Positions 8,587 to 62,576 of a stretch of 64,000 nucleotides of DNA are shown here, piece by piece. The stretch is from a virus. The notes beneath the pieces were generated by a model. It was not told the DNA's origin and did no database searches. It was given only the letters and a program-made list of their open reading frames with translations. The first letter of the stretch is position 1, and each line of letters begins with the position of its first letter. The position numbers and the translations under genes were made by a program. The DNA is taken from positions 88,441 through 152,440 of the IMG/VR virus record IMGVR_UViG_3300035210_000189. One strand, given 5' to 3'.

Positions 8587-8610
8587 AAAAGGAGCCTAAG
8601 CTCCTTTTAT
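8587..8610. terminator. Bidirectional terminator
   Basis: AAGGAGC-CTAA-GCTCCTT with flanking A and T runs between convergent genes. Confidence 0.8.
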
Positions 8611-11888: not shown

Positions 11889-11965
11889 ATCCCCCTTCCT
11901 TCAGGTAGGGGATGAATTTCAACCATGCTCTTGACTTTTGTTATTTTCTCAATATAATCAACCAC

Positions 11966-18261: not shown

Positions 18262-18318
18262 AGATAACACCTTTTAATAGTAATCGTCAGTTTATCACAA
18301 TTAAGCAAAGATAATCAA

Positions 18319-32163: not shown

Positions 32164-32177
32164 TTACGGAGACTATT

Positions 32178-32798
32178 ATGACTGAACTTGAACATTATAT
32201 CCAATCCAAAAAGAATGATATTAAAGAAAAAATTTATAATTGTATTTTAAAGATAGATCAGCACTTCAATATTAAACTAGATTATGATTTAACAGACGTT
32301 GGTAATGATATTATTATTAAAGGTGTTGATGAGTATTCTTTTACTGTTTCAAAATGGTTTCAATCAAAGATCAATCCTTGTAATTTATTGAAATTTAATT
32401 GTGCTGGATTTCCTTTTGTCCTTCCTAATAGTCATAAGATGATTTTTTTCATTAGGTTTAATGATGATTTTGATATTGAACAAGCTCAATTTAGAACTTC
32501 CTTTTTAACTAAGAAAGGTAATATCACTGGACTAAAGATTTTTTTTGACAAATCCCTTGAGTTGGGTCTTATCGAGAATAGTTATATTCCAAGTGGTGGT
32601 GGCAAAAGCAGTTATAGTTTAAAAACATCAGAATTGATGTGTCCATTTTTAGATGAGGTTATTTTGTTTCGACTGTCTTACAACACAAATGAAGAGGTTA
32701 AAGAACTGTTGCCAGAATATTACATCCCGTCAGCTTATGATTTTAATTCTGTAGAATTTGCAGATCGTCTGAAAGTGTACAGCATGTTGACACTTTAA
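32178..32798 (+). CDS. M-x-x-I tail protein, B group
   Basis: 206 residues from ATG 32178 (ACGGAG ribosome site). Closely similar to the 42958 product: VDEYSFTVSKWFQ with EEEYSFPIYKWFQ, and LLPEYYIPSAYDFNSVEF with LLPEFFFPSAYDFNSVDF. Ends FADRLKVYSMLTL. Confidence 0.75.
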   Translation: MTELEHYIQSKKNDIKEKIYNCILKIDQHFNIKLDYDLTDVGNDIIIKGVDEYSFTVSKWFQSKINPCNLLKFNCAGFPFVLPNSHKMIFFIRFNDDFDIEQAQFRTSFLTKKGNITGLKIFFDKSLELGLIENSYIPSGGGKSSYSLKTSELMCPFLDEVILFRLSYNTNEEVKELLPEYYIPSAYDFNSVEFADRLKVYSMLTL

Positions 32799-42460: not shown

Positions 42461-42961
42461 ATGAACGAATTCATGACCCTTTTAAATACTTTCGCATCTC
42501 TCAAAATGACTGATCACTCCAACCTCACGCCGATGATTGATATTAAATTCAACGTGGCAAGTGAGCAATATTCCTTGGCTGCAAATCAAATTCGACAGAA
42601 TATTCAAAAAATGCAACAGCGTACTCCTAGTCTGGCCTACGAACATGCTGGCATTCAGTTTCTCGAAATGATTCATAATAGTATTCTTGATATGGATCAT
42701 AAATACCACAACGAATATATGATTGGTTTGTTTGAGTTGATTAAAAAGAACCTTTCAATGGCTAATTTAAATAATGAATTGCTCTCTTTTCAAGCTTATA
42801 GTCAAGATCTCAATAAACAAGAATCAAAAAACGCTTTGATTGACTTTATGAAGACTCTTAATAAAAAAGATTTTAAACATAAGCAAGCTGTAATCCTTTT
42901 TGTTGCTCAAATGTTGGCTACTCACGATTACTTGGTTTCGTTGAAGGATCAATATTTGTGA
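42461..42961 (+). CDS. Unknown helical protein, paralogue of 43669
   Basis: 166 residues from ATG 42461 (TTGGAG). Shares L(N/K)T..SLK, SLAA..IR..I, IQ(F/L)L.MIHN.(I/V)(L/I)D, LFELI...S and a C-terminal LK.QY(L/F) with the 43669 product. The two copies flank a tail-protein gene, so the block probably arose by duplication. Function unknown. Confidence 0.75.
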   Translation: MNEFMTLLNTFASLKMTDHSNLTPMIDIKFNVASEQYSLAANQIRQNIQKMQQRTPSLAYEHAGIQFLEMIHNSILDMDHKYHNEYMIGLFELIKKNLSMANLNNELLSFQAYSQDLNKQESKNALIDFMKTLNKKDFKHKQAVILFVAQMLATHDYLVSLKDQYL

Positions 42962-43602
42962 GTATGACTGAAGTCAACACTAATGGTTCAGTTTTTGACG
43001 ATTATTCCTCTATAATTTCTGATCTTCAGTCAAACTTGTTGAGTGTTATAGATAATGTTAATAGAAAATTTAACATTCATCTCACTGTTGATGTTAAAAA
43101 TAAAGGCAACACGATTATTATTAAAGGAGAAGAAGAATATTCTTTTCCTATTTATAAATGGTTTCAACATGGTGTAGCTTCCCATATACCTACTATTAAA
43201 TTGGATTGTCACACTTTTCCATTTTATCCGTATCAATTTAAAAACGCTACATTTTCGCTTTTAGTTGATAAAAATTTTAAACTTGTTTCCGCTCATTTTA
43301 AGGGGCGGGTTGTCATTGACAATATTATTTCACATTTCGTCTTGAAATTTAATCATCATCTGGATTTAACAGAAATCTTGGCTCAGACATTAGGTGTCCG
43401 TGTCAGCACAAAATATTCAATTGCTAAAGAAGGAAAACAAATCTGTTCATTGGAAGATGAAAACTTATTCTTTAAATTTTTTCTTCACAATAAATTAGAT
43501 ACTATTAATTTACTTCCTGAATTTTTTTTTCCTTCTGCGTATGACTTCAACTCAGTCGATTTTCAAGATCGTTTAAAATTGTTTGATATGATTATTTGTT
43601 AA
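42958..43602 (+). CDS. M-x-x-I tail protein, B group
   Basis: 214 residues if started at the GTG that overlaps the upstream stop (AAGGA fourteen bases before), or 212 from ATG 42964. Contains the hairpin LLVDKNFKLVSAHF and ends PSAYDFNSVDFQDRLKLFDMIIC, with Cys in place of Ile at the last position. Nearest relative in the window is 32178. Confidence 0.7.
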   Translation: MSMTEVNTNGSVFDDYSSIISDLQSNLLSVIDNVNRKFNIHLTVDVKNKGNTIIIKGEEEYSFPIYKWFQHGVASHIPTIKLDCHTFPFYPYQFKNATFSLLVDKNFKLVSAHFKGRVVIDNIISHFVLKFNHHLDLTEILAQTLGVRVSTKYSIAKEGKQICSLEDENLFFKFFLHNKLDTINLLPEFFFPSAYDFNSVDFQDRLKLFDMIIC

Positions 43603-46347: not shown

Positions 46348-47157
46348 ATGAATTTATTAAAGCAAATGTTATGTAATTCAACTGACAAACTTTCAGCCGA
46401 TTTTCATTCGGCTGTCGCAAAAAAGCTTGTTATTCTATTACAAAAAATCTGTAAAATTGACTTATCTAATATGGATGAGATACATCCTGATTATTTTAGA
46501 TATACACCAAGTCAATCAGCAGCTAATATTTTTTATGCTTTTGCTTATAAAGGAAAATCTGGTAAAGCTATTATAAGGCGAATTGATTCTCAACTTTCTG
46601 TTATTTTCTCATTTCGGCTGGCAGATGATTACCCTACGTTACCTGCGGGGGTTCGCTTTGTTGATATTACTGTCGATGACAACTTAAATTTACAATCTGC
46701 ATTATTTCAAAATAAATTTCACTTTGGTTGTGGAGTTAACACAAATCCAAATATTTTTCCAGCTACCATAGAATACGAGACTACTAGTAAAGGATCTTTA
46801 TTAATCAATAGGGAACTTGATAGTCAATGCAACCTAAAAACATCTATCACTTATACTATTTCAGGAGTAAATGATCGCTCATTAACACTCAATAGGGATG
46901 AAAATTCATCTAAATTTAACTTATTTTTTGAAAATGATGCTTCTTTTTACACTCCATTTTTAAAAATGATGGCGATTTGTTCTCAAAGACCACCTTTATT
47001 TTATTCTGTATTCAGTGAATATCCTTCTTATGTTGACTTAACATCAAATGGCACTGAATGCTTTCAATTATTGTTAGAAACCTATCAAAGTGAATATCAA
47101 AACCATGCTATTTCTCTCCATGATAAATTGTTATTGCTTGATATGGTCAATGTTTAA
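46348..47157 (+). CDS. Array protein 1, M-x-x-I tail
   Basis: 269 residues. Family layout: helix ending (V/L)ILLQKICKIDLS; strand pair; VRFVDITVDDNLNLQSALF (the VDxxLNF hairpin); near the end LFYSVFSEYPSYVDL; tail LLLLDMVNV. First of fourteen tandem paralogues. AAAGG ribosome region. No known domain recognised. Confidence 0.8.
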   Translation: MNLLKQMLCNSTDKLSADFHSAVAKKLVILLQKICKIDLSNMDEIHPDYFRYTPSQSAANIFYAFAYKGKSGKAIIRRIDSQLSVIFSFRLADDYPTLPAGVRFVDITVDDNLNLQSALFQNKFHFGCGVNTNPNIFPATIEYETTSKGSLLINRELDSQCNLKTSITYTISGVNDRSLTLNRDENSSKFNLFFENDASFYTPFLKMMAICSQRPPLFYSVFSEYPSYVDLTSNGTECFQLLLETYQSEYQNHAISLHDKLLLLDMVNV

Positions 47158-47186
47158 AAACGTATGTTAAATATTTGGAGTAACTA

Positions 47187-47966
47187 ATGAGTTTTAAAGA
47201 TGATATAAAAAAATTTAGCTATTGTGGATCTAATAATTTTCCAATAAAATTTCACATTGATATGAAAGAGAAACTGGCTGAACTTTTAAAGCTGGTCTGT
47301 AACATCGATCTTTCTATGCTGTCGCCTGATGAAAATTATTTTCAATTTGATAGGGATTTCAAACAACATCAAAAAATTAAGTATCATTTCAATTATACTG
47401 GCACTGACGTTGGTGAGGCGGAAGCACTTGTTATATTGAGTGGAGAACGATTTTTTGTATCATTTCAATTTTATAAAAAGGAAAAACATCCAAGCCTTCC
47501 AGCAGGAGCCTATTGTGTCGATATTGATGTAGATGAACAGTTGAGTTATATATTGGCTGAGTTTGAAATCCGCTATGATTTTGGATGGAAATTAGATAAC
47601 CCTAAACATCGTGCTACAGTCTTCTTTTATAAAGTTCTTGATAAAAATCTTAAATTAAGCACAGTTATCAATTGCATCAATCGGAATAGTCGTAAAACAC
47701 ATACCTTGCTTAAAACAAAAGATCTTCCAGCCTTGTTTTTTGAAAATAATCATCATTTTTATGACACACTGAAAGATATGCTTGAATGTTGCGAGATGCA
47801 ACCAAATTTGTTCTATTCTGTATTTTCAGAATACCCAGACCATATAGAACTAGCTTCCAACAGTGAAGCTGTCAAAAAGTTTCTCACCTTATACCATGAC
47901 CAATTTATACAGGATTCTTCGCTTGTAGAGTCAAGGCTTCTATTGCTCGAAATGCAGGCTATTTAA
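47187..47966 (+). CDS. Array protein 2, M-x-x-I tail
   Basis: 259 residues. LLKLVCNIDLSML, CVDIDVDEQLSYILAEF, LFYSVFSEYPDHIEL and tail RLLLLEMQAI. TTGGAG ribosome site. Closest to array protein 1 (both have SLPAG../TLPAG before the hairpin). Confidence 0.8.
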   Translation: MSFKDDIKKFSYCGSNNFPIKFHIDMKEKLAELLKLVCNIDLSMLSPDENYFQFDRDFKQHQKIKYHFNYTGTDVGEAEALVILSGERFFVSFQFYKKEKHPSLPAGAYCVDIDVDEQLSYILAEFEIRYDFGWKLDNPKHRATVFFYKVLDKNLKLSTVINCINRNSRKTHTLLKTKDLPALFFENNHHFYDTLKDMLECCEMQPNLFYSVFSEYPDHIELASNSEAVKKFLTLYHDQFIQDSSLVESRLLLLEMQAI

Positions 47967-48028
47967 TTTATTTTGATTGATATAATCGCTCTATTATGAT
48001 ATTATGTTGCAAATTATTGGAGTGTTTC

Positions 48029-48760
48029 ATGACTATTTTAGACGAGATAAAAACTTTAAAATATACAGATGCTGTGTCATCTTCATTTAACACTCTTATT
48101 CAATCAAAATTAATTACTTTGTTTCATAAATTGTGCCATATAGATGAGGAAACGCTAGTTTATGGGTTTTCAGTTCTTCTTTCTGGTATAGGTTCTATTC
48201 ACGCTTCTTTTAAATATGCAACAGTGGAAATCACCTGTAAAGAAGATCATATCAAAGTGGTTTTCTATTTTAAAAGCGATCAGTTTATTAAAGAAATCCC
48301 AGTAGGATCGCAAGAGTTGGTTGTTATTACTGATGCTGATATGAACTATAAATCAGCCACATTTAAAAGTGCTTTTTCCTTTGGAATACCTAATCAAAAA
48401 GGAACGCTCCAAATAGATAGATTGGTTGACATCAATTTTAATACGACAACATCATTGTCTTATGCCATCTCATGTTATGGCTTTGATTTGTATCGGTTTA
48501 ATTTAAAACATGAAAACTTGCCTAAAATTTATTTGAGCAATGATAATAACTTTTATACCCCCTTCTTAAAAATGATTGAGTATTGCTTTTATCAATCAGA
48601 CATTTTTTACAGTGTTTTTGATGAGTATCCTTCTCACCAAGATATTTTGACCTATGACTATGAGTTTAAAAAGTTTTTAAGAAACTACAATAAAGATTAT
48701 AAAAGTCGTAAGAAACTATTGAAGTCAAAGATTGCATTACTTGATATGCAGGCGATATAA
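48029..48760 (+). CDS. Array protein 3, M-x-x-I tail
   Basis: 243 residues from ATG 48029 (TTGGAG). LFHKLCHIDEETL, VVITDADMNYKSATF, IFYSVFDEYPSHQDI, tail KIALLDMQAI. From here to 54920 genes follow each other with 0-3 bases between stop and start. Confidence 0.8.
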   Translation: MTILDEIKTLKYTDAVSSSFNTLIQSKLITLFHKLCHIDEETLVYGFSVLLSGIGSIHASFKYATVEITCKEDHIKVVFYFKSDQFIKEIPVGSQELVVITDADMNYKSATFKSAFSFGIPNQKGTLQIDRLVDINFNTTTSLSYAISCYGFDLYRFNLKHENLPKIYLSNDNNFYTPFLKMIEYCFYQSDIFYSVFDEYPSHQDILTYDYEFKKFLRNYNKDYKSRKKLLKSKIALLDMQAI

Positions 48761-48761
48761 C

Positions 48762-49508
48762 ATGACCACTATTTATGAACAGTTAACCAACAAGGATTAT
48801 TCTGTTGAGCCTACGATTATTGCTCGTTTGATTGTATTGCTAAAAATTGTCTCAGGTGTTGACTTGTCAGGCCAAGATGCTGAGTTCAAACGTAATACGA
48901 TCATAACAGGTGGTTTTGTGACCATTGAGTTTCATTTTCCTAATGGTGTAGCTTCCGTTACGTCTAAAAAAGGCTTGCTGACGGCTGACTTCAAATTTTT
49001 GAGAAAGATGAAGGAAAACTTTCCTTTCAATGCGTGGCATTGTCAAATAGATGTCGATCATGAAATGAATTTTGAAAAGGCACGTTTTGAATATTATATC
49101 AGCGTCTCAAAATATAACTTAAACCGTGATGAAAGTTCAGCAGCGTATTGTGCCATTAAAATAAACCATGTTCTGGATAAAGAGCTTAACCGCTTTAATA
49201 CTGTTGAGTACAACAATTTGCATTCAACAACATTCAGAACCTATGCTGATATGTCATCAATTGGGCTAAATTCATATTTTTTAACGCCTAATAATGATTT
49301 TGAGCAACTTTTAATCAAATTTCTTGATTTCTTTAAACAAGATCCCCGTATGTTTTACAGTATTTTTACGGAATATCCTTCTTTTGTTCATGTCATTGAA
49401 CAGATGGAGAAAGCAAAAGACTTTTTAAATCTATTTCATGAACAATATATCAATGATATAGATATTTTAAAATCAAGAATGCTACTTATCGACATGCAGG
49501 CGATTTGA
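48762..49508 (+). CDS. Array protein 4, M-x-x-I tail
   Basis: 248 residues from ATG 48762, one base after the previous stop. MTTIYEQL start, LLKIVSGVDLSG, CQIDVDHEMNFEKARF, MFYSIFTEYPSFVHV, tail RMLLIDMQAI. Its ribosome site AGGCGAT lies within the previous gene's last codons. Confidence 0.8.
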   Translation: MTTIYEQLTNKDYSVEPTIIARLIVLLKIVSGVDLSGQDAEFKRNTIITGGFVTIEFHFPNGVASVTSKKGLLTADFKFLRKMKENFPFNAWHCQIDVDHEMNFEKARFEYYISVSKYNLNRDESSAAYCAIKINHVLDKELNRFNTVEYNNLHSTTFRTYADMSSIGLNSYFLTPNNDFEQLLIKFLDFFKQDPRMFYSIFTEYPSFVHVIEQMEKAKDFLNLFHEQYINDIDILKSRMLLIDMQAI

Positions 49509-49509
49509 T

Positions 49510-50289
49510 ATGAAAACAATCTATGATCGTATGTTAGAAAAAGAAGCTCGTATTTTTAATGAAGAGTTAAATTCTGTCATTATTCCAAAATTAGTTCATT
49601 TACTTAATCAGTTGTGTGATATTGATTTGAATGCAACAGGAACATGTTTTAAGCCTTATATGATCTATACTGGTTCTACCATTTATGATCACAATCTTAA
49701 AATTACTTACAGATGTCAATACTGTGAAGCAAGCGTGTCATTAAAAGATAATAAATTATCCGTATATTTTAGTTTTTTTAAGAAGAATTTAGATCATTAT
49801 AAAACACCTTTAAATGCAGATAGATGTGCTATTGATGTTGACCATCAGTTGAATTTTAAACAAGCTGTTTTTAATTATTATGCAAACTTTTCAAAGTTAA
49901 AAATTGATCGTCACTGTGATGGGCATGTATATAGTTCATTGAATATTGCTCGAACTTTTGATTCAAACTTCAATCAAACCAACACAGTAAGCTATTTGAA
50001 TGGGTTAACGGAAACATCAGATTATATTGATTTAAAGGACTTTGCTTTAAATCCAGTTTTTTTTCAAGCCAATAACCAATTTGATAAATTACTTGTAGAC
50101 GCTACAACCTTTTGCGAGTATAATCCAAAAGAATTCTACAATGTCTTTCCAGAATATCCAACCTATGTTGAGTTCATGACCAACATTGGAAAGGCTACTG
50201 CGTTTTTGAACCTTTTTTACGCACAATACACTGACGATGTTGAAATCTTAACATCACGACTTCTACTATTAGACATGCAGGCGATTTAA
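49510..50289 (+). CDS. Array protein 5, M-x-x-I tail
   Basis: 259 residues. MKTIYDRM start, LLNQLCDIDLNA, CAIDVDHQLNFKQAVF, EFYNVFPEYPTYVEF, tail RLLLLDMQAI. One base after the previous stop; ribosome site in CAGGCGATT. Confidence 0.8.
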   Translation: MKTIYDRMLEKEARIFNEELNSVIIPKLVHLLNQLCDIDLNATGTCFKPYMIYTGSTIYDHNLKITYRCQYCEASVSLKDNKLSVYFSFFKKNLDHYKTPLNADRCAIDVDHQLNFKQAVFNYYANFSKLKIDRHCDGHVYSSLNIARTFDSNFNQTNTVSYLNGLTETSDYIDLKDFALNPVFFQANNQFDKLLVDATTFCEYNPKEFYNVFPEYPTYVEFMTNIGKATAFLNLFYAQYTDDVEILTSRLLLLDMQAI

Positions 50290-50290
50290 T

Positions 50291-51046
50291 ATGAAAACAC
50301 TCTACGAACAATTCAGGAAATGTAAATTAGCCCTTAATTCTGATGTCGGTGATAATCCATTAATTTCAAAGAAACTTAAAGTCTTGTTTCATAAAGTTTA
50401 TGGCATTGATATTTCTGATGAATCTATACTGTTTAAAAAAGATATCGGATCTATTGGTCAAGAACTAAGTATTAGTTACAAATTTGAATATGGATCGGTT
50501 GATGTCTCCACTCAACAAGAGCAATTGGTTGTGAAGTTTTATCACAATGACAACTTTAAAGCTCCTTTTAAAGCTAATCGTTCTACTATTTCTGTGGATC
50601 ATGATTTAAATTTTGTTCGTGCTGAATATTGTATGTATTTTGCATTTTTAAACAGCGTTCTCCATAATAATGGTGGTTATGGTGGATACAACCAAATGAA
50701 AATCCAGCGGATTATTGATTTGAACGGTGCTTACAATTCTATCTCCTTCCGACATTCAGATGATGCAGATAGTGATTTATTTATTGATGTTGAACGGAGT
50801 AAGCTGGATGAACGCTTTTTTCAACCAAATACCAATTTAGAAGAAACATTCTATCAATTGATCGACTTTGTTACTGAACACCCACACGAATTTTATGCGA
50901 TATTTGATGGATATCCAAGTTTTTCTAAATGTGTTGACCATTCTGACGGTATTATTGATTTCGTTAATGTTTTTATTCATCAGTATTTTAGTGATAACGA
51001 AAGATTAAAACAAAACATGTTGTTACTTGATATGCAGGCCATATAA
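50291..51046 (+). CDS. Array protein 6, M-x-x-I tail
   Basis: 251 residues. MKTLYEQF start, LFHKVYGIDISD, STISVDHDLNFVRAEY, EFYAIFDGYPSFSKC, tail NMLLLDMQAI. The FKYG-type strand reads FEYGSVDVS. Confidence 0.8.
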   Translation: MKTLYEQFRKCKLALNSDVGDNPLISKKLKVLFHKVYGIDISDESILFKKDIGSIGQELSISYKFEYGSVDVSTQQEQLVVKFYHNDNFKAPFKANRSTISVDHDLNFVRAEYCMYFAFLNSVLHNNGGYGGYNQMKIQRIIDLNGAYNSISFRHSDDADSDLFIDVERSKLDERFFQPNTNLEETFYQLIDFVTEHPHEFYAIFDGYPSFSKCVDHSDGIIDFVNVFIHQYFSDNERLKQNMLLLDMQAI

Positions 51047-51047
51047 C

Positions 51048-51812
51048 ATGAAAACCATTTCTGATTATCTTTTTAAATGCAAACGTAATCTGACAACTAA
51101 CTTAGCTACTGATGTCAAACTTCGCATTGCGGTTAAGCTTGAAACATTACTTAACCAGTTTTGTGACATCGAACTTTCAGAAAATTCGCCTTCTTTTACA
51201 CCTAATGGTGGCATGGTAGGTCAAGAGATGGTTTCTTGCTATCAATTTAAATATGGTTCAGCCGATGTATCGACAAAAGATCAAAATCTGGAAGTTACTT
51301 TTTTCTTTAAAGAAAGTAATTTATTAAAAATTCCTTTGGGCACTAGTCGTTGTGTAGTTACTGTAGATCATGATTTAAACTTTAAAAAAGCAACATATTC
51401 ATATTATGTTTGCTTCTCAAAAAGAATTCTAGATTCAGACTACACTGATTTTGAACATTGCAATCTTCTTATTCAAAGGATTGTAGACGCAACTAACTAT
51501 TATAACAATATACTTTATCATAACACTCAATCAAAAGGCAAAGAATATAAGGATTTATTACAACATGGTCTTAATGAACGCTATGTGATTCCAGATTATG
51601 AATTTGAAATGATGTTTAAGAATTTCATTGTGTTTGCATGTACTAAACCATTTGATTTTTACGAAGCTTTTCCTGAGTATCCAAGTTATATGGATTTCAT
51701 TCATAAAATTGATCAGACTGTCGCATTTATGAACTTGTTTAACCAACAATACACAGCAGACCCAATACTGCTTAATCAAAAGATGTTACTTCTTGACATG
51801 CAGGTGATCTAA
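51048..51812 (+). CDS. Array protein 7, M-x-x-I tail
   Basis: 254 residues. MKTISDYL start, LLNQFCDIELSE, FKYGSADVSTKDQNLEV, CVVTVDHDLNFKKATY, DFYEAFPEYPSYMDF, tail KMLLLDMQVI. Closest to proteins 6 and 9. Confidence 0.8.
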   Translation: MKTISDYLFKCKRNLTTNLATDVKLRIAVKLETLLNQFCDIELSENSPSFTPNGGMVGQEMVSCYQFKYGSADVSTKDQNLEVTFFFKESNLLKIPLGTSRCVVTVDHDLNFKKATYSYYVCFSKRILDSDYTDFEHCNLLIQRIVDATNYYNNILYHNTQSKGKEYKDLLQHGLNERYVIPDYEFEMMFKNFIVFACTKPFDFYEAFPEYPSYMDFIHKIDQTVAFMNLFNQQYTADPILLNQKMLLLDMQVI

Positions 51813-52613
51813 TTGACAACTATTTATGATCACCTATTTTTATGCAATAAACTGAATGGCTTTAACAGTTCCCTCAATGATCAAATTATGTCTAAATTGG
51901 TTGTTTTGCTAGAACAGGTTTGTAATGTGGATTTGTCTGATGAACCAGCACTCTTTTTTCAAAATATAGCTAGTTTTGGAAAGGATGTTAGTATTGAATA
52001 TAAGTCCAAGTATGGGACGGCATCGTTATACACTAACAATAAAATGTTGGAAGTCATTTTTCTATTCACTCTAAAAGCATGTGATTCCCTATACATTCCA
52101 TTTAAATCAACTATTTGCGAAGTTAAAGTGGATAATGACTTAAATTTTAAGCAGGCAACTTTTAATTTTTTTGTTAACTTTTCTCACAACAACATCGAAC
52201 TTAAAGTCAATCCAAATAAATATGTTGGAACGGTATTGGTTACTAATCCTAAGTATTCAGCTATTCATATTAAACGTATCATTGATGAACATAGAATTAG
52301 TTCTAATATTATTACTTATAATAATTTTAAATGTAACAGTGGAGAATATATTAATTTAGGTAATATTGAGCTAAATAACCAATACTTTATACCAGACAAT
52401 GATTTTGAAAATTTATTTGTTAAATTCATTTTACTTTGTTCGAACAAACCAAAACAATTTTATACTGTTTTCATTGATTATCCTAGTTATCAAAATATTA
52501 TTGATCATAAAAAACATGCGGTTGAACTATTAAACCTATTCAGTGAACAGTATTTTAATAATTTTGAAACTTTGCAATCAAATATGCTACTAATTGATAT
52601 GGTGGAAATTTAA
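51813..52613 (+). CDS. Array protein 8, M-x-x-I tail, TTG start
   Basis: 266 residues, starting at TTG directly after the previous TAA (MTTIYDHL aligns with the other starts). LLEQVCNVDLSD, CEVKVDNDLNFKQATF, QFYTVFIDYPSYQNI, tail NMLLIDMVEI. The TTG start should lower its expression relative to the rest. Confidence 0.78.
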   Translation: MTTIYDHLFLCNKLNGFNSSLNDQIMSKLVVLLEQVCNVDLSDEPALFFQNIASFGKDVSIEYKSKYGTASLYTNNKMLEVIFLFTLKACDSLYIPFKSTICEVKVDNDLNFKQATFNFFVNFSHNNIELKVNPNKYVGTVLVTNPKYSAIHIKRIIDEHRISSNIITYNNFKCNSGEYINLGNIELNNQYFIPDNDFENLFVKFILLCSNKPKQFYTVFIDYPSYQNIIDHKKHAVELLNLFSEQYFNNFETLQSNMLLIDMVEI

Positions 52614-52614
52614 T

Positions 52615-53382
52615 ATGACGAATATTTATGAGGCGATGGTACACTTTAAAAAGACAAACGAACCTAACTGGGGTATGACGCCTTTGGTTAGCTCTAAACT
52701 TGCTTCATTGCTTCGACAGGCAACTGGCATAGAACTGCATGGTGATGAACCTCATTTTACTAATAACATTAGCGTATGTGGTTTGGAAGTGGCTATGGAT
52801 TACTTCTTTAAATATGGATCAGCCACTTTGAGTTTGAAAGATAATGAGTTGGAAGTAGGTTTTTACTTTGTTCGTAAAGATGACAATGCTTATCAACTTC
52901 CATTTAATGCTAAACAATGTAGAGTTTATCTTGATCGTGATTTTAATTTTAAATTCGCTGTTTTTAATTATAAAGTTAATTTTTTAAAATCTCTTTTAAA
53001 TAATCACAACCAAAGTTCTGTGTATGCTTCCATTAAGATTCAAAAAATTATTGAGCAGGATTCAACAACAAGAACTACTGTTGAATATCAAAACCTTCTC
53101 TCTAATGTAAAAGAACATACTTCGCTTCATGATAAAGGTCTGGATACCCATTTCTTTAATGCTGATGTTAAATTTGAATCGTTTTTAGCTAAATTCATGG
53201 ATTCTTGTGCCACACGACCATATCAGTTCTATGAATTATTTCCAGAATATCCAAACTATATTGATTTCATGGAAAAAATGCACAAAGCTGTTGAATTTTT
53301 AAACCTATTTAACTCCCAATACATTAATCAGTTTGATGTGTTAGAATCTAAACTTCTTTTACTTGAAATGCAGGCTATCTGA
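52615..53382 (+). CDS. Array protein 9, M-x-x-I tail
   Basis: 255 residues. MTNIYEAM start, LLRQATGIELHG, FKYGSATLSLKDNELEV, CRVYLDRDFNFKFAVF, QFYELFPEYPNYIDF, tail KLLLLEMQAI. Confidence 0.8.
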   Translation: MTNIYEAMVHFKKTNEPNWGMTPLVSSKLASLLRQATGIELHGDEPHFTNNISVCGLEVAMDYFFKYGSATLSLKDNELEVGFYFVRKDDNAYQLPFNAKQCRVYLDRDFNFKFAVFNYKVNFLKSLLNNHNQSSVYASIKIQKIIEQDSTTRTTVEYQNLLSNVKEHTSLHDKGLDTHFFNADVKFESFLAKFMDSCATRPYQFYELFPEYPNYIDFMEKMHKAVEFLNLFNSQYINQFDVLESKLLLLEMQAI

Positions 53383-53383
53383 A

Positions 53384-54160
53384 ATGTCTACAATACTGGA
53401 AAATATTGCAACATTAAAAAACAATCATTTTCCTGATGAGCTTAACGCCGTTATTCTCGCTAAGCTAACAATATTATTAAATATTACTTTTGGCTCTGCC
53501 TTATCCAGTGCTGGTAATGTTTCTTATCGTGAAATGGTAACTTATAATGACAATGACCAGATAGATATTTCATATAACTTTGAGTTTGGCGTTGCCTTCA
53601 TTTCTTTTTTTCGACCACTTAATCAACTCACTGTTTCCTTTTGTTGTTCTGTTAATATTGATAACTTATATCATAAAGATCTTAATTATTGTTTAACCGT
53701 TGATCCTAATCTTAATTTCGAGACGTTCTCTTTTGATAGATTCTTTGAGTTTTCGAGAGAACATAATGATAAACGTAAATATACATCTGTATGGTCAAAC
53801 TTGCTATTTGATATTAAAATGGATAATTTTTTAAATGTTAGCAAGAACTTTCTATATCGTAACGAAGAGATGTATACAATAGATGAAGATGATAAACAAA
53901 ATCTTTTTGATCATGGTTTGAATCCAGTGTTTTATCTTTCCAGTCGGCACTTTGATGAACTATTATTAAAGTTCTTAAATTATTGTATGAGAAATAAAAA
54001 AGATTTTTACTCTATATTTCCACACTATCCGACACAGATAAATTGTATGGAATCACTCAACAAAACAGTAGAGTTTTTAAATGTTTTTTGTGAAGAATAT
54101 ACAGACAATTTGTTAATTTTGGAGTATAATATTCTACTACTTGATATTCAGGCGATTTGA
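53384..54160 (+). CDS. Array protein 10, I-x-x-I tail
   Basis: 258 residues. MSTILENI start, LLNITFGSALSS, CLTVDPNLNFETFSF, DFYSIFPHYPTQINC, tail NILLLDIQAI. The only strict member with Ile instead of Met at -4; the most diverged core of the contiguous array. Confidence 0.78.
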   Translation: MSTILENIATLKNNHFPDELNAVILAKLTILLNITFGSALSSAGNVSYREMVTYNDNDQIDISYNFEFGVAFISFFRPLNQLTVSFCCSVNIDNLYHKDLNYCLTVDPNLNFETFSFDRFFEFSREHNDKRKYTSVWSNLLFDIKMDNFLNVSKNFLYRNEEMYTIDEDDKQNLFDHGLNPVFYLSSRHFDELLLKFLNYCMRNKKDFYSIFPHYPTQINCMESLNKTVEFLNVFCEEYTDNLLILEYNILLLDIQAI

Positions 54161-54161
54161 T

Positions 54162-54920
54162 ATGACGACACTTTATGAACAATTTAATGCAGTTCGAACA
54201 GCTCAGAAGAACTGGCTGTATGAACCGGACGTTCAACAAAAACTTATTGATATCTTTAAGATTATTTGTGATATTGATCTGTCTAATGAAACGACACCAT
54301 TTAAACCTGATGGCGGTTCTTTTGGTATGGAAATTGTTTATAACTATAAGTTTAAATATGGCAGAGTCTATGTTCAAACTGAGAAAAAAGAAATGCAGGT
54401 TATGTTTATTTTTGATGACCCCTATGATCTGACCATTCCATTTAGTCGTTCTTCAAGTTCACACCGTTGTACTGTCAAAGTCGATCACGACTTAAATTTT
54501 GTAGAAGGTCGATTTGGGTTTTATACATCTTTTTCAAATAGAACTCTAGATAGAGATGTTTCTGGATTTCTTATCCTCTGTTTTGAACGAGTCATTAATA
54601 GTAAACAATCATTTAATAGCATTGCTTATAGTCCTGATATGCTATCAGATAACTATCTAGATTTAATTCCACATCATCTTCATAAAAATTATTTAATTCC
54701 TAACATTGATTTTGAACAAGTATTCATGGAGTTCATGACTTTTTGTTCAGAGAATCCAGAAGACTTTTATAATGTGTTTGTTGAATATCCAAACTATGAA
54801 CAAATTATTAGTAATGTTGATAATTTTGTTCTTTTCTTAAACTTATTTAACCAACAATACATCGAAAACTCAGCACTTTTACAATCACGTATTTTGTTGT
54901 TAAACATGCAGACAATTTAA
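54162..54920 (+). CDS. Array protein 11, M-x-x-I tail
   Basis: 252 residues. MTTLYEQF start, IFKIICDIDLSN, FKYGRVYVQT, CTVKVDHDLNFVEGRF, DFYNVFVEYPNYEQI, tail RILLLNMQTI. Last gene before the Sir2 insertion. Confidence 0.8.
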   Translation: MTTLYEQFNAVRTAQKNWLYEPDVQQKLIDIFKIICDIDLSNETTPFKPDGGSFGMEIVYNYKFKYGRVYVQTEKKEMQVMFIFDDPYDLTIPFSRSSSSHRCTVKVDHDLNFVEGRFGFYTSFSNRTLDRDVSGFLILCFERVINSKQSFNSIAYSPDMLSDNYLDLIPHHLHKNYLIPNIDFEQVFMEFMTFCSENPEDFYNVFVEYPNYEQIISNVDNFVLFLNLFNQQYIENSALLQSRILLLNMQTI

Positions 54921-55001
54921 ATATGAGCTTAATATAATAAAGTAAATTGACATGTAGTTATTTTTAAATTAAACTTTCAAGACTTATATGAGGATAGTTA
55001 C

Positions 55002-55820
55002 ATGTTAGAACGTATATTTAAAGCAAAAGATGATTTCGATAAAGCCACTCTGTTAAAAGTCTCGGTTGATGATTATAAACCTAAGATCACTTTCTTTACA
55101 GGCTCTGGCATATCTCAGGAGAGCGGTTTAGAAACATTCAGGGCGGATGATGGTTTGTGGAGCAATCATCGTGTGGATGAAGTTGCAACGGCTCACGCCC
55201 TTCAAAAAGACTTTAAAAAGGTTAACAACTTTTTCAATGATCGACGTAAAGAAGTGATGGCCGCTCAACCTAATCGTTCTCATGAGATATTGAAAGAACT
55301 TGAAAAGTATTTTCATGTTGTCGTTGTCACTCAGAACGTTGATGACTTGCATGAGCGTGCTGGCAGTTCGTGTATCTATCATTTGCATGGCGAAATCATG
55401 CGTTCACGACCAGTTGGTAATGCCAAAGTATTCTATGACCAAAAGAAAGACATTAAACTGGGTGATAAGTGTATGTTGACCAAAGCACAAATTAGACCTC
55501 ATATTGTTTTGTTTGATGAAATGTTAGATGACAGTATTTTGTCTGACGCCAGAAAGCATATTAGAGAATCGGATGTCTTTGTTGTGGTTGGTAGTAGTCT
55601 TCAAGTTGAACCTGCCGCTTCATTGGTGGTAGAAGGCTTTGGTCTGAGGGATTTTATTTTGGTTGACCCAAGCACTGTCTTCATGAAATACAATGCTAAC
55701 TATGTGCATGTGAAAGAAAAAGCGACTGTGGGTTTGGAAATGATGTTACCGCAGTTGATTATTAAAGCCGACCAGATGAAAACTCAGTTTAAAGAAAATA
55801 AAGAAAGATTGAAAGTATAG
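55002..55820 (+). CDS. Sir2-family NAD+-dependent deacylase
   Basis: 272 residues. FTGSGISQESGLETFR (about 32-47), TQNVDDLHERAG (110-121), catalytic His129 in HLHGE, and GSSLQVEPA near 205 form the Sir2 NAD site. The usual zinc Cys tetrad is missing; only one Cys (DKCML) is in that region, so the small domain is reduced. It could deacylate proteins or cleave NAD+. It sits inside the paralogue array with gaps of 81 and 53 bp, unlike the 1-bp spacing of the array, so it looks inserted. Confidence 0.85.
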   Translation: MLERIFKAKDDFDKATLLKVSVDDYKPKITFFTGSGISQESGLETFRADDGLWSNHRVDEVATAHALQKDFKKVNNFFNDRRKEVMAAQPNRSHEILKELEKYFHVVVVTQNVDDLHERAGSSCIYHLHGEIMRSRPVGNAKVFYDQKKDIKLGDKCMLTKAQIRPHIVLFDEMLDDSILSDARKHIRESDVFVVVGSSLQVEPAASLVVEGFGLRDFILVDPSTVFMKYNANYVHVKEKATVGLEMMLPQLIIKADQMKTQFKENKERLKV

Positions 55821-55873
55821 TGTATTGTGTGTTATACTTGCGATAATCTTATTTTTTTGAAGGCTATTTCAAC

Positions 55874-56677
55874 ATGACAACGATTTATGACAAACTTTTA
55901 GTATTAACAAATAAAATTGTCGATATGGATGATCTAATTTTCAAGCTTGATAATGAGTTAGATTTAGAGATAACTTCAAATTTGATTACTTTATTAAATC
56001 TCTCCTGTGGCATTGACTTGTCACAGGTAGAATCTGCATTTAGCGACCACAGATTATCATTTGATGAGTTTAATGATTTAGAGATTTCTTATAAGTTTCC
56101 GTATGGCAATTCTTTTATTAGTGTAAACACAACATCTAAATCATTGGACGTGTCATTTTCTTTTTCAAATGAAGTTCCTATAAAATTATACAAAAATAAT
56201 GTGTGTTATCTTAATGTTGATCATAACATGCAGTTTGAAAAATGTGCATTTAAAAGAGTTATTCAATATTCTAAATCTACTGTCGGCCAACCATTTTCTC
56301 TGCCAGTTTGGGGTGTTTTAATCATCTATACTTCTATTGACAAAGATTTAAACAAAATGCATAAGTTACATTATCAAAACAACAAATTGTATTCAGTGGA
56401 CGAAAACAATTTGATCAATTTATTTGATCAAAATATTAATCATTTTTTTAAATCACCACCTAATGAGTTCGATGAATTGTTATTTAGTTTTTTTAACTTT
56501 AACAGTCTCCATTCTGTCGAATTCTATGAGGTATTTCCTGATTATCCAGATTACAACAATCTAATGAAATCAGTTGATTACCTTATTCAATTTTTAAATT
56601 TGTTTTTTACACAATATACTACTGATAAACATCTATTACATCGTAAAATAGAATTGCTTGAAATGAGATTAATTTAA
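55874..56677 (+). CDS. Array protein 12, M-x-x-I tail
   Basis: 267 residues. MTTIYDKL start, LLNLSCGIDLSQ, CYLNVDHNMQFEKCAF, EFYEVFPDYPDYNNL, tail KIELLEMRLI. First of three paralogues after the Sir2 gene. Own promoter likely in the 53-bp gap (TATACT). Confidence 0.8.
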   Translation: MTTIYDKLLVLTNKIVDMDDLIFKLDNELDLEITSNLITLLNLSCGIDLSQVESAFSDHRLSFDEFNDLEISYKFPYGNSFISVNTTSKSLDVSFSFSNEVPIKLYKNNVCYLNVDHNMQFEKCAFKRVIQYSKSTVGQPFSLPVWGVLIIYTSIDKDLNKMHKLHYQNNKLYSVDENNLINLFDQNINHFFKSPPNEFDELLFSFFNFNSLHSVEFYEVFPDYPDYNNLMKSVDYLIQFLNLFFTQYTTDKHLLHRKIELLEMRLI

Positions 56678-56678
56678 A

Positions 56679-57389
56679 ATGGATACTATTTACAATGAGA
56701 TCTTGAAGAGGAAAACGACCAGAAGCTTAGGGGACGACTTGACTTCGGCTATTAGTTTGAAATTAGTTAAACTTTTAAAAGCTTCCTGTAATATTGATTT
56801 ATCTGGTATAGAAGTGCCTTTTCAACAAACTGCTATTATTGATTTATCAGAGCTTAGTTGGCCGTTATTTGGTATTGCTCCTGATGGCACATTTTACATA
56901 ACTTTTCATTTTATTCATGGAGTGGTATCGCTACACCTTTATCCAGATAAACAAAGTTTAACATTGTCATTTGGCTTTAAGTATGATCATTTAGATTTTA
57001 TCCTTCCTAGTAATTCAAAATCTTGTAATGTAACGATAGATAACAATATGAATTTTATTGATTGCAATTTTGAAGTTGGTTTTTTATTTTCAACTGTGAC
57101 TTTAAATAATATTGAATCCAAAAGAATATTTGACATGGATTTTATCAATCCAGAAGATGTTCATAAAATAGAGGATGAAACAGATAGTCTTAATGAAATT
57201 ATCTATTATAATTATTTACATACATTAACGTCATATGAATTAGATCCATTATTGATAAATCATGATTTGTTAGTTCAATCAATTTTCACTAAATTAATGG
57301 GGTTACATTCAAAATATCCACATATTTGTTATTCAGGATTTGAAAATCACCTAACATTAAGGAACTATTTAAATGATAACAATTCATGA
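56679..57389 (+). CDS. Array protein 13, tail lost
   Basis: 236 residues. MDTIYNEI start, LLKASCNIDLSG, CNVTIDNNMNFIDCNF, then ICYSGFENHLTLRN where others have FY.VF.EYP, and stops at NYLNDNNS. It lacks the last ~45 residues, including the tail, and its end overlaps the next gene by 17 nt. This looks like a deletion that removed the gene's end up to the start of the next. Confidence 0.75.
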   Translation: MDTIYNEILKRKTTRSLGDDLTSAISLKLVKLLKASCNIDLSGIEVPFQQTAIIDLSELSWPLFGIAPDGTFYITFHFIHGVVSLHLYPDKQSLTLSFGFKYDHLDFILPSNSKSCNVTIDNNMNFIDCNFEVGFLFSTVTLNNIESKRIFDMDFINPEDVHKIEDETDSLNEIIYYNYLHTLTSYELDPLLINHDLLVQSIFTKLMGLHSKYPHICYSGFENHLTLRNYLNDNNS

Positions 57390-58116
57390 TTCCATGATGA
57401 AATTACAATACTTGGATAACCTTGATATTGGTTCATTATTTTATCCAAAATTTATTTTTTTACTCAAACAAGTATTTGACATTGATTTGACGAACGAACT
57501 CAATCCATTTCAGGAAGTTTCTCAAATGATTGGTAGTAATATTGATATTTGCTATCTATTTAAATATGGAAGCATTCTTGTATCTGCTCACAAAGAAAAC
57601 ACTGCTATTGGTGTATATATCACTATTACTGATAGTGTTATTAGTAATAAAATGCCTTACAAATCCACATCTTGCAGTTTAAAACTTGATCATGATATGA
57701 ATTTTATATGGGCATCTTTTGATATTAGTCTGGAATTTTCACGTTCGTACAATGATGAGTATAGCTTATTACAAATCAGAAATGTATTAAGTCCATCATC
57801 TCGTATTGTTAAAACATTCACTTATTCCAATCAAACGCAGTATTCAGTTTCAAAAGATTTGAAATCTTTTGGACTTAGTTCCAACTTTTTTACAGCCAAT
57901 AAAGAATTTGATGATTGCTTAATCGACTTCTTAACGTGCTGTTCAGTGACACCAAAACAATTTTATGACGAATTCACCGAATACCCCAACTATGATACGT
58001 TGATATCAACGGTTGAAGGCACTGTACAATTATTGTCTATATTTAACAAGCAATATATAGATGATAAAGATTTATTGAAATCACGATTGTTATTGACTGA
58101 AATGTGTTTGATTTAA
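57373..58116 (+). CDS. Array protein 14, M-x-x-I tail
   Basis: 247 residues. MITIHDSM start, LLKQVFDIDLTN, FKYGSILVSA, CSLKLDHDMNFIWASF, QFYDEFTEYPNYDTL, tail RLLLTEMCLI. Start lies inside the truncated end of the previous gene, so the two are coupled. Confidence 0.8.
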   Translation: MITIHDSMMKLQYLDNLDIGSLFYPKFIFLLKQVFDIDLTNELNPFQEVSQMIGSNIDICYLFKYGSILVSAHKENTAIGVYITITDSVISNKMPYKSTSCSLKLDHDMNFIWASFDISLEFSRSYNDEYSLLQIRNVLSPSSRIVKTFTYSNQTQYSVSKDLKSFGLSSNFFTANKEFDDCLIDFLTCCSVTPKQFYDEFTEYPNYDTLISTVEGTVQLLSIFNKQYIDDKDLLKSRLLLTEMCLI

Positions 58117-58171: not shown

Positions 58172-59275
58172 TTGTTTAATTTCTTCAAAAAATTCCGACA
58201 AAAAAACAAACTACGTGGTTTCTTGTGTGGAACCCACTCTGTTACTGTGTCACAAGTTGAAATTGAGTTTGGTAGAGTTATTACTTATTCCTGTTCTTTT
58301 TTGGATTACATCATTTCTTTTGATTACAATGATTATGCTGGTGTCATTAATCAGTTAGGTGTGAGCACTATATCTTACAAAAACACCGTTATTTGCAAAG
58401 AGCACCACAATTTAACGATTAGTGGGCTAACACCAGAAGATTATTTGAAAAAATATTTTCAAAAAGCAATTGATTACTCTCAGAAATTAGATATAAATCA
58501 TTTGAATATCATCTTGCCATTTTTTGAAACAAAAGCCTTTCATTACACTAAAAGCCTTGAAATTGGATTAGAATCTACTTATCCGCAAGGTTGTATTTAC
58601 AATGTAGCCTTAATGCAGGAAAAAGCACCTTATAACGCCTATCTTAATAGCCATTGTAATAAAGGTTGGACTAAATTTAAAATAGTCACCTACAATGATA
58701 CGGTTTTTAATTGTTTATACACCAATGAGTTTGGTTATCTGTTAAGACAAAATCAAATACAAATTTCTCAAATAGAAACAATATCAGCTCAAATTAGTAC
58801 CCTGCTTGATAACAGTAAACTCACGTTGGAAACTTACGAGCGTGATGCTGACAAAGTTTTCTTTAATGAAGAAAAAAAGACAGCCTTGTTATACCGAGTT
58901 ATCAATTCAGAAAAGGATTATCACGGATCTCATATGGACGCGGTTGATGAATTGTATAATTACACTTCATTACATCTATTCTGGGTGGTTGATTTTACGC
59001 ATAAAACTACGACACTTAATATTTTTGAGTATGCGTATGATGACCATACATTCATTAAAGAACACATTCATTCAATGGAAACTAGGTTTCTAGCGGAAAT
59101 GCTTGATTTAGCTTATTATGAAGACTTCTTTAACAAAACTGTTGATAAGTTAATACATTGTCATTATCCCAGCAGAAAGCTTATTGAGCTTTTGGATAGT
59201 GCAATAGATCTCGATGGTTTTGATGGTACGCTGACAGAAGAACAATACAATTTGTTTAAAATGATGACAATTTGA
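58172..59275 (+). CDS. C-group tail protein 1, TTG start
   Basis: 367 residues starting TTG after AAGGAG (MFNFFKKFRQKNK). Pair with 59353: both begin MFN(F/L)FK with basic residues, share SYKNTVICKEHHNLTISGL / LLNNVVIHQEPYNITLSKL and end LTEEQYNLFKMMTI / LTEEQYSVFSMYSI. The basic amphipathic N-terminus may touch membrane or nucleic acid. Tail obeys the M-x-x-I rule. Confidence 0.78.
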   Translation: MFNFFKKFRQKNKLRGFLCGTHSVTVSQVEIEFGRVITYSCSFLDYIISFDYNDYAGVINQLGVSTISYKNTVICKEHHNLTISGLTPEDYLKKYFQKAIDYSQKLDINHLNIILPFFETKAFHYTKSLEIGLESTYPQGCIYNVALMQEKAPYNAYLNSHCNKGWTKFKIVTYNDTVFNCLYTNEFGYLLRQNQIQISQIETISAQISTLLDNSKLTLETYERDADKVFFNEEKKTALLYRVINSEKDYHGSHMDAVDELYNYTSLHLFWVVDFTHKTTTLNIFEYAYDDHTFIKEHIHSMETRFLAEMLDLAYYEDFFNKTVDKLIHCHYPSRKLIELLDSAIDLDGFDGTLTEEQYNLFKMMTI

Positions 59276-59352: not shown

Positions 59353-60390
59353 TTGTTTAATCTATTTAAGTTTTTAAAAAACAATAAAAATACACCTTTT
59401 AAAGTGAATGGTGTTCGAGTTTCTGTCATAGTCACTCCAGCCATTTCATGTCAGCATATTAAATACGTTGCTTATCTGAGTGGTTTTGAAATTGTTTTTG
59501 AGTATTATGACTACTTGTATATAGTTAATAAAATAGGCCGCTGTCAGATACTATTAAACAATGTGGTTATTCATCAAGAACCTTATAATATCACCTTATC
59601 GAAACTAGATCCTAATAAATATATAAAACAGTGTTTTAAAAGACTAATTCATCATGTTAATCAATTAGATCATTTGAAATTAGCTAAGATTACTCCAATT
59701 TTTAACGTTGATATTTTTAACTATATAAGCAGTATTTCAATCCATACAATTCGAAAATTTAGAAATGTTGATATTTATCATCTGTCATTAACTCAGAAAA
59801 ATGATATTGAGATTCCCTATAATCTTCGATACAATGCTAGGGATTTAAATAACATTGAAATTGTTGCTTTTTCTGACACTCCTTTTTGTCATCTGATGTC
59901 TCGGGATAAATCTTCTCCTAAATTTATTGAGGCTAGCAACGCTATTTATGATAATAACCGTATTAGAAACCATCCAGAAAAGTATTCGTCTTTCAAACTG
60001 GGAGATAATTTTAAGAATTCTTTATATAATGCGACTTTAAATGAAGCTCTTGTGTATGTTGTGTTTAAAGACTCGCTTAGTTATTCCAACAATAAGATTG
60101 TTTTACATTTTTTTTGGCATGTTTCCTTTGCCACGCAAGCTGTTAATGTGGTTACTTTTATTTTTGATGATGAAAAATTCGTTGGTGAATGCAGTGAACC
60201 CATAGAATCAAGATTCATCGAGAACGATATTGATCTTGATTATTATAAGAACTTCCTTGAAATTTTTGTCGAAAAATTATTGCTTATTTATTTCCCTACA
60301 CAGAATCTGGCTGATTTTCTTAGTATCCCTGATTTTAATGGACGACTAACCGAAGAACAGTACAGTGTTTTTTCGATGTATAGCATTTAA
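59353..60390 (+). CDS. C-group tail protein 2, TTG start
   Basis: 345 residues, TTG start after AAGGAG. Paralogue of 58172 throughout (for example LHFFWHVSFATQAVN with LHLFWVVDFTHKTTT). Ends LTEEQYSVFSMYSI. Both use TTG with the same strong ribosome site, so the weak start codon seems to be kept on purpose. Confidence 0.78.
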   Translation: MFNLFKFLKNNKNTPFKVNGVRVSVIVTPAISCQHIKYVAYLSGFEIVFEYYDYLYIVNKIGRCQILLNNVVIHQEPYNITLSKLDPNKYIKQCFKRLIHHVNQLDHLKLAKITPIFNVDIFNYISSISIHTIRKFRNVDIYHLSLTQKNDIEIPYNLRYNARDLNNIEIVAFSDTPFCHLMSRDKSSPKFIEASNAIYDNNRIRNHPEKYSSFKLGDNFKNSLYNATLNEALVYVVFKDSLSYSNNKIVLHFFWHVSFATQAVNVVTFIFDDEKFVGECSEPIESRFIENDIDLDYYKNFLEIFVEKLLLIYFPTQNLADFLSIPDFNGRLTEEQYSVFSMYSI

Positions 60391-61535: not shown

Positions 61536-62576
61536 TCAAATGAACATTGCTTCAACAACTAACAATTCATTACCTGTTAATGGGCCTTCCAATGCAAACC
61601 CTAATTCTTCTCTGGTTTTTAAACTCACGCATTCCTTACACATTTCAGACAGCCACCATTTCTGAATACTTTCATTTTCAATGAAATGGCTTTTTAACAG
61701 TGTATACACATCAATCTTCGTAAGCATATCAGAAGCTTCCAACATAAGTATTTTTTGAAATTTTGCGTTGTCGTGCATAATTCTAGAAAATGAGAATTTT
61801 GACATATCGGCATCTACAAGGTTCTTAAAAACAATCATGTTTGTTTTTGGATTATCTTGGTCATACTCCTGAGCCTTCAAATAAAAGAATGTTTTGTCAT
61901 TAAAATTGACCTCCATAACACTTTCTTTCTGCAGCGATTCGTCATCAATGTATGTTAACCAAAACGTGTAAGATTCTTCAAAATCAATACCGCTGCCATT
62001 AAAATTAAATTCTAATGGTTTAATTCCGGTTTCTAGCATTTGGTATAAATGTTCACCAATAATTTTAATATTAGTTACTTGCATCTTTCCATCCTGCATT
62101 AAATGATAAGTGTCTTTTAATTTTTCATGAGGGTTAATCATGAAAAAGCCTTTATCATAACTGATATTTATAATTTTATTTATGTGAAACCCTATTCTGG
62201 TTAATGCTTTTCTGTCCATTTCTTTGTACATAGCTAATTGATTATCAAATTCAGATAGGAGTTTAATAATCGACATGTATTGTTGTCCATTTGATAGCAT
62301 TTTTGAATCGTAAACTTTCCCATAGACCATGAAATCGTCAATAAAAATCATGTGTATAATTTCTTCTTGATTGACGAACAAACAATCTTTGAATTCTTTT
62401 TCATTTTCTTTTTTGAATATGAGGTAAGAGCATTTAGCATTAACCTTATTTTCGATCATTCCAATATCTTTAAGGTATGACTCCTTAAAAAATTCTGGTG
62501 GCACGCTCACATAACCTACATCATCCAACGTCAGAGAATTAGGTTTTATGATGGCGTTGATTAATGTTGTTAACAT
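61536..62576 (-). CDS. Unknown 346-aa protein, variant tail
   Basis: Starts MLTTLINAIIKPNSLTL; repeated beta patterns and several D/E-rich hairpins. Ends LTGNELLVVEAMFI, close to the LTEEQYNLF.M..I end of the C group but with Met at -3. It may be a reverse-strand relative of the 58-60 kb pair. GAGG ribosome site. Confidence 0.7.
   Translation of the reverse strand: MLTTLINAIIKPNSLTLDDVGYVSVPPEFFKESYLKDIGMIENKVNAKCSYLIFKKENEKEFKDCLFVNQEEIIHMIFIDDFMVYGKVYDSKMLSNGQQYMSIIKLLSEFDNQLAMYKEMDRKALTRIGFHINKIINISYDKGFFMINPHEKLKDTYHLMQDGKMQVTNIKIIGEHLYQMLETGIKPLEFNFNGSGIDFEESYTFWLTYIDDESLQKESVMEVNFNDKTFFYLKAQEYDQDNPKTNMIVFKNLVDADMSKFSFSRIMHDNAKFQKILMLEASDMLTKIDVYTLLKSHFIENESIQKWWLSEMCKECVSLKTREELGFALEGPLTGNELLVVEAMFI

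Follow-up and report, generated by a model that had tools for sequence, protein, structure and literature searches.

A tandem array of fourteen genes of an undescribed family and a C-terminal tag shared across protein families of an uncultured large phage

The array at 46348-58116 and its protein family

The 64,000-nucleotide (nt) stretch analysed here, referred to as the window, comprises bases 88441-152440 of the 152-kb IMG/VR virus record IMGVR_UViG_3300035210_000189 and carries a tandem array of fourteen genes at 46348-58116, nearly all of which end in the same short C-terminal tail. The array encodes an undescribed family of cytosolic proteins of an uncultured large phage. Open reading frames (ORFs) were called mechanically from a six-frame listing, and exactly fourteen members, the number given by the first-pass annotation, were recovered, all on the + strand; a search of the record with one member also returned 14 matches (E 1e-167 to 2.5e-7). 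The close packing of genes 3-11 was confirmed, with spacing of 0-1 nt instead of the 0-3 reported, but the run is not uninterrupted, as a Sir2-family gene lies between members 11 and 12. The Sir2 gene has the same neighbourhood in two relatives. The features of the locus are as follows (aa, amino acids; pLDDT, predicted local distance difference test).

46348..47157, + strand: array member 1, 269 aa, tail ...LLLLDMVNV
47187..47966, + strand: array member 2, 259 aa, tail ...LLLLEMQAI
48029..48760, + strand: array member 3, 243 aa, tail ...IALLDMQAI
48762..49508, + strand: array member 4, 248 aa, tail ...MLLIDMQAI
49510..50289, + strand: array member 5, 259 aa, AlphaFold2 pLDDT 90, tail in the predicted last helix (244-257)
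50291..51046, + strand: array member 6, 251 aa, tail ...MLLLDMQAI
51048..51812, + strand: array member 7, 254 aa, tail ...MLLLDMQVI
51813..52613, + strand: array member 8, 266 aa, TTG start, tail ...MLLIDMVEI
52615..53382, + strand: array member 9, 255 aa, tail ...LLLLEMQAI, 77-84% identity in three other IMG/VR contigs
53384..54160, + strand: array member 10, 258 aa, variant tail ...ILLLDIQAI with Ile at -4
54162..54920, + strand: array member 11, 252 aa, tail ...ILLLNMQTI
55002..55820, + strand: Sir2-family gene, not a member and without the tail, Pfam SIR2 E 4e-37
55874..56677, + strand: array member 12, 267 aa, tail ...IELLEMRLI
56679..57389, + strand: array member 13, 236 aa, truncated, without the tail
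57373..58116, + strand: array member 14, 247 aa, tail ...LLLTEMCLI

The counterpart of member 13 in the nearest relative, G001, is full-length and spans the whole profile. Since member 13 itself is missing both the C-terminal part and the tail, it may be decaying. The members are old, diversified paralogues, as had been proposed from the letters of the DNA, with identities of 21-38% among the paralogues; identity to member 1 is 21-31% and to member 5 23-39% (its own orthologue, at 85%, aside). Across the 14-row alignment just three positions do not vary, M1, one hairpin Asp and the Y/F of 'FYxVF'. Two motifs earlier ascribed to every member are less general: the start M(T/K)T(I/L)Y occurs in most members but not in genes 1, 2 and 3 (MNLLK, MSFKD and MTILD), and the hairpin VDHDLNF in the majority but not in the remaining ones.

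No family in Pfam, PHROGs or NCBIfam was matched consistently across the 14 members, the 14-row profile matched no PDB sequence, and one member used as a query found no relative in 50,697 phage records. The profile search that the first pass had named as its refutation therefore placed the members in no known family, and the earlier description of the family as undescribed is supported. Weak Pfam and NCBIfam matches to DNA_PPF (0.007) and archaeosortase D (7e-4), one member each, were taken as chance. A plasmid origin and a bacterial origin of the array were likewise rejected, as another member had no relative in 72,556 plasmids or, in a search reaching close relatives only, in the genomes of 84,980 species. 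The AlphaFold2 model of member 5, built from 41 sequences, is confident (mean pLDDT 90.1, predicted template modelling score 0.86) and suggests a fold with an N-terminal helix, a mostly antiparallel region of 7-8 strands and C-terminal helices; the structural comparison suggested in the first pass, run with Foldseek against PDB and BFVD, gave no significant match to this model.

Close IMG/VR relatives, looked for with single proteins as queries, are records of 193, 179 and 162 kb and a 64-kb fragment, and the three longer ones hold 14, 7 and 7 array copies. Copies in close record pairs are nearly all 0.71-0.95 identical, with a ratio of nonsynonymous to synonymous substitution (dN/dS) of 0.10-0.34. 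The array orthologues are thus mostly under purifying selection, with copies gained and lost, which lends no support to the possibility, raised in the first pass, of diversification in conflict with hosts.

A C-terminal tag on many protein families

The tail of the array proteins is real but not family-specific. When ORFs were grouped by single linkage after removing the last 16 residues, it was found on about 22 families; five further tagged groups, small in membership or made up of short proteins, were judged to be chance and left out. All tag counts cover four related records, i.e., the source record and three IMG/VR relatives. Counted from the C-terminus, the tag has Met at exactly -4, as a rule with Asp or Glu before it at -5; position -1 is hydrophobic, most often Ile, and so are -6/-7. 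The family consensus is K-D-x-L-K-[LV]-[IL]-[ED]-M-[ILV]-x-I-COOH. ORFs with Met at -4 number 42/224, 58/272, 63/262 and 54/234 in the four records, 6.3-8.2 times the expectation, and the full pattern ends 39, 53, 51 and 46 ORFs, compared with about 1 on average at other offsets. The tagged share is 17-20% of the ORFs in each record, about one gene in six, which corresponds to about 40-60 tagged proteins per 150-190 kb. Among conserved clusters present in at least two records, 25 of 220 are tagged, as against 0-4 at 30 control offsets.

In most tagged families every member bears the tag, and the 40 tagged representatives compared with Pfam and PHROGs matched no consistent family. Profile comparison of the bodies with hhalign links only the array, the B-group (proteins at 17, 31-32 and 43 kb of the window) and families 2 and 7, all weakly, and family 5 with family 10; for most family pairs the probability is below 5%. 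Three tagged families are multi-pass membrane proteins as predicted by simple hydropathy scans, which were also used for signal peptides. Because the tail occurs on families without detectable similarity of their bodies, multi-pass membrane ones included, it is a genome-wide C-terminal tag and no evidence of family membership. Tagged paralogues also form other, shorter arrays of three genes each (L009 13879-16302; L010 3478-5464; L012 15583-17698; L022 261-2918), none as large as the one of 14 genes.

The tag was absent from the 477 ORFs of Salicola phage SCTP-2 and from 212 ORFs sampled from the huge phages LR756502 and LR745206, and no described precedent for such a phage tag was found in the open-access library searched. 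In LR745206 (L062, L064), Leu occupies -4 in 24/100 ORFs where 7.8 would be expected, and ends of the form K-[IL]-x-x-[IL] recur; this may be a separate C-terminal bias of another kind.

Selection on the tag acts at the protein level, since synonymous codon choice at -1 and -7 matches that of gene bodies and every synonym occurs; some shift was seen at -6 and -5. In each of the nine families tested, conservation over the last nine columns exceeds that of the body, although the Met column was itself selected for; columns -1 and -7 exceed it in most of them. Compared with other genes, tag-bearing genes have a higher dN/dS (0.21 vs 0.14 and 0.15 vs 0.10 in two comparisons), as might be the case for proteins evolving faster at a host interface, yet constrained. 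Signal peptides were flagged in 5/181 tagged proteins, as against 107/619, and most of these five can be explained by ORF starts called too far upstream within packed arrays. Tagged proteins, being without signal peptides, are therefore mostly cytosolic, despite the many exported proteins of this phage.

In both AlphaFold2 models the tag is predicted to form the last helix, at 244-257 in the array protein and at 220-233 in the B-group protein, where a coil of about 9 residues precedes it; the array model has no such linker. The hydrophobic face of the tag lies on about the same side in nearly all 22 families, which partly follows from the definition of the motif, and its amphipathic moment is 0.33 compared with 0.28 for shuffled tails, with 15/22 families above.

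The first-pass annotation had joined the array and the B-group into a superfamily of at least 20 members by hairpin and tail. The tail can no longer be counted for this purpose, and a weak link is left: the array and B-group profiles match with an hhalign probability of 58% with the tail and 38.5% without it (E 3e-4 among 231 pairs). Their models share the order of a long helix, mostly antiparallel strands and C-terminal helices, and on this weak profile link and matching order of elements a common superfamily is plausible. The B-group proteins and other tagged proteins of the window are the following.

17237..17749, - strand: B-group protein, tail ...LTLANMLVI
17749..18270, - strand: B-group protein, tail ...VSLANMVLI
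30691..31443, + strand: B-group protein, tail ...LNVLSMLIL
31459..32163, + strand: B-group protein, tail ...LTLFEMSLI, AlphaFold2 pLDDT 81.5
32160..32798, + strand: B-group protein, tail ...LKVYSMLTL
42958..43602, + strand: B-group protein, tail ...LKLFDMIIC
6652..7434, + strand: protein of another family, tail ...ENLVRDMVLI
58172..59275, + strand: protein of another family, 367 aa, tail ...YNLFKMMTI
59353..60390, + strand: 345-aa protein of the same family as 58172..59275, tail ...YSVFSMYSI
61536..62576, - strand: 346-aa protein, variant tail ...LLVVEAMFI with Met at -3; a relative ends LLLIEAMVI

The source record and its relatives

The large-phage context proposed for the array is supported by related IMG/VR records. 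Seven ORFs of the 193-kb record, RNA ligases included, are common to the 440-kb Salicola phage SCTP-2, and the record encodes a T4-type RegB and T4-type RNA ligases, which fits a large tailed phage; the assignment to a phage rests on these genes and on the IMG/VR call. The families listed for the contigs examined include no recognised terminase, portal or capsid gene, and the 193-kb record is therefore likely the non-structural part of a larger genome. Contigs extending past this relative were sought for head genes and none was found. Four independent contigs (G000, G001, G002 and G003) all end near the same two places, and these common break points are either genome ends or unassembled repeats.

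The lineage encodes Sir2, TrpRS, ribosome recycling factor and Lgt (window 55002-55820, 40030-41025, 45288-45842 and 8596-9474, respectively), signal peptidase I (L018 14738-15634) and NAD kinase (L010 8441-9022). The phage-encoded, host-like Lgt has its nearest relatives in gammaproteobacteria, at about 50%, and the host of the phage is probably gammaproteobacterial. With Lgt, the signal peptidase and a large number of ORFs predicted to be exported or to be lipoproteins, the phage may run its own lipoprotein maturation. ORFs that are TnpB-like by eye are present in two records (window 11912-13048; L031 7921-8988). A strong, host-like extended -10 element, TGnTATAAT, stands upstream of many genes of G000-G003, tagged and untagged alike. 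A late-promoter signature on the tagged genes was considered and rejected, as their extended -10 elements are the same as those of other genes.

Possible role of the tag and known systems

The balance of these observations tips slightly toward the tag being a docking or targeting helix recognised by one common partner. What we infer is docking through the tag, a partner held in common and recruitment as the purpose. The last approximately 12 residues, a helix ending in Met-x-x-Ile-COOH, would act as the docking helix, the partner could be a phage protein or the tags could associate with one another, and docking would bring the array proteins together with the rest of the tagged proteins at a single site inside the infected cell. 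The peroxisomal C-terminal signal is a further analogue of such a docking tag. Candidate destinations are a viral compartment, a membrane-bound assembly and the prohead; because membrane proteins are tagged and no separate promoter type is seen, an intracellular assembly would be our first guess, with capsid loading second. We advance more tentatively the fuller proposal that one receptor directs 40-60 soluble and membrane-bound proteins to a site of assembly or a viral compartment; the 14-gene array would be the largest cargo family, and the tag the first phage-wide C-terminal sorting signal.

Several points weigh against a docking tag. In the array protein the tag lies within a confidently folded helix (ten-residue blocks with pLDDT 96 and 83), and judging from this model it may partly serve the protein's own fold. 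A few tagged families are distantly related, so that the independent families are fewer than 22, and all four tag-bearing records are relatives of one another. In the packed array, moreover, the codons ATG-CAG-GC of the tag coincide with the stretch where ribosomes probably bind for the following gene, and this overlap may contribute to how uniform 'MQA' is there. A wholly nucleotide-level origin, in which 3' nucleotides are kept for the start of the next gene or for a terminator, would account for ATGCAGGC standing at about Shine-Dalgarno distance from the next ATG. As a general cause it is refuted by the codon use at -1 and -7, and 51/181 tagged genes stand more than 100 nt from any gene on the same strand; this origin can practically be dismissed.

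The folding role raises the broader alternative that the tag is no signal and instead forms the last helix of a single, very old and very diverged superfamily. The weak profile links between the array, the B-group and families 2 and 7 and the element order shared by the two models speak for it, but membrane families bear the same tag, most family pairs fall below 5% hhalign probability, and, as Met and Ile stand at a constant distance from the free carboxylate, recognition of the C-terminus is the easier explanation for that spacing; we regard the superfamily reading as unlikely. The C-terminal location, with the conserved terminal hydrophobic residue, the cytosolic nature of the proteins and their host-like promoters, would suit control of stability or activity through a degron or a motif that binds an adaptor, with Clp/Lon, the sliding clamp and the host polymerase as candidates. 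The membrane proteins among the tagged ones argue against it, and we know of no resemblance of the tag to ssrA-type or clamp-binding peptides, which makes this explanation improbable. Loading into the capsid, with tagged proteins as internal head proteins ejected with the DNA like T4 IPI-III and Alt, has a model in T4, where the first 10 residues of IPIII are an example of a short terminal sequence by which varied proteins are loaded (PMC9026906), and the head paralogue family of SPN3US, with 20 members and numbers from 2 to 20 between phages (PMC5694885), varies like the 14/14/7/7 copies of the array. Nevertheless, the three tagged multi-pass membrane families would be unusual cargo, tagged genes share the host-like promoters of untagged ones with no separate late-type motif, the T4 sequence is N-terminal and cleaved, and no head genes were recognised in the contigs examined, so that capsid loading appears rather unlikely. 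Self-association of the helices, with tagged proteins binding each other into hetero-oligomers or condensates, follows the example of the encapsulation peptides, amphipathic helices at protein termini that trimerise and condense their cargo (PMC12339742). The common side of the hydrophobic face, partly a matter of motif definition, agrees with this, but the amphipathic moment is only modestly above that of shuffled tails and the array protein has no evident linker; we hold self-association to be quite unlikely.

Few phage targeting signals are known, namely the N-terminal sequence of T4 and the surface recognised in nucleus-forming phages without a terminal signal. Carried by about one gene in six, a C-terminal tag would offer a simple, testable handle on the destination of dozens of ORFan proteins, and it is a possible short tag for directing proteins. 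It is also a warning that shared C-termini in such genomes can pass for family homology.

The fold of p32/C1QBP (MAM33) consists of a helix, a seven-strand antiparallel meander and C-terminal helices, and the B-group model has the same order of secondary structure. Its Foldseek matches to p32/C1QBP are weak (E 0.08-0.4, TM-score at most 0.31) and serve as a lead only; there was no p32 match among PDB sequences, nor was it among the 50 Foldseek matches listed for the array protein. As in the head paralogue families A and B of SPN3US and phiKZ, copy number varies between related giant phages (PMC5694885); no consistent match in Pfam or PHROGs pointed to SPN3US family A (PF12699) or B, the latter only as far as PHROGs covers it. 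The T4 internal head proteins with their capsid targeting sequence (CTS) also combine a short terminal sequence with diverged bodies, and a general loading device has been proposed for it (PMC9026906). Unlike the CTS, which is N-terminal, cleaved and confined to a handful of proteins, the tag described here is C-terminal and extends to about 22 families, including membrane ones; no shared N-terminal leader was seen among the N-termini listed for the tagged families. Microcompartment encapsulation peptides, which the tag may resemble, are amphipathic terminal helices on otherwise unrelated proteins (PMC12339742), but they have about 18 residues and a disordered linker, whereas the tag has about 12 residues fixed to the free C-terminus, and the list of families obtained for 156 proteins of the incomplete 193-kb relative names no BMC-domain shell protein. 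Neither chimallin nor PicA is named in the PHROGs and Pfam lists of the incomplete records, in which no search was aimed at either. Phage-nucleus import by PicA relies on a recognition surface, with no N- or C-terminal signal (PMC11087766); if the tag recruits, the two would be alike in that many phage proteins are selectively gathered in one viral compartment.

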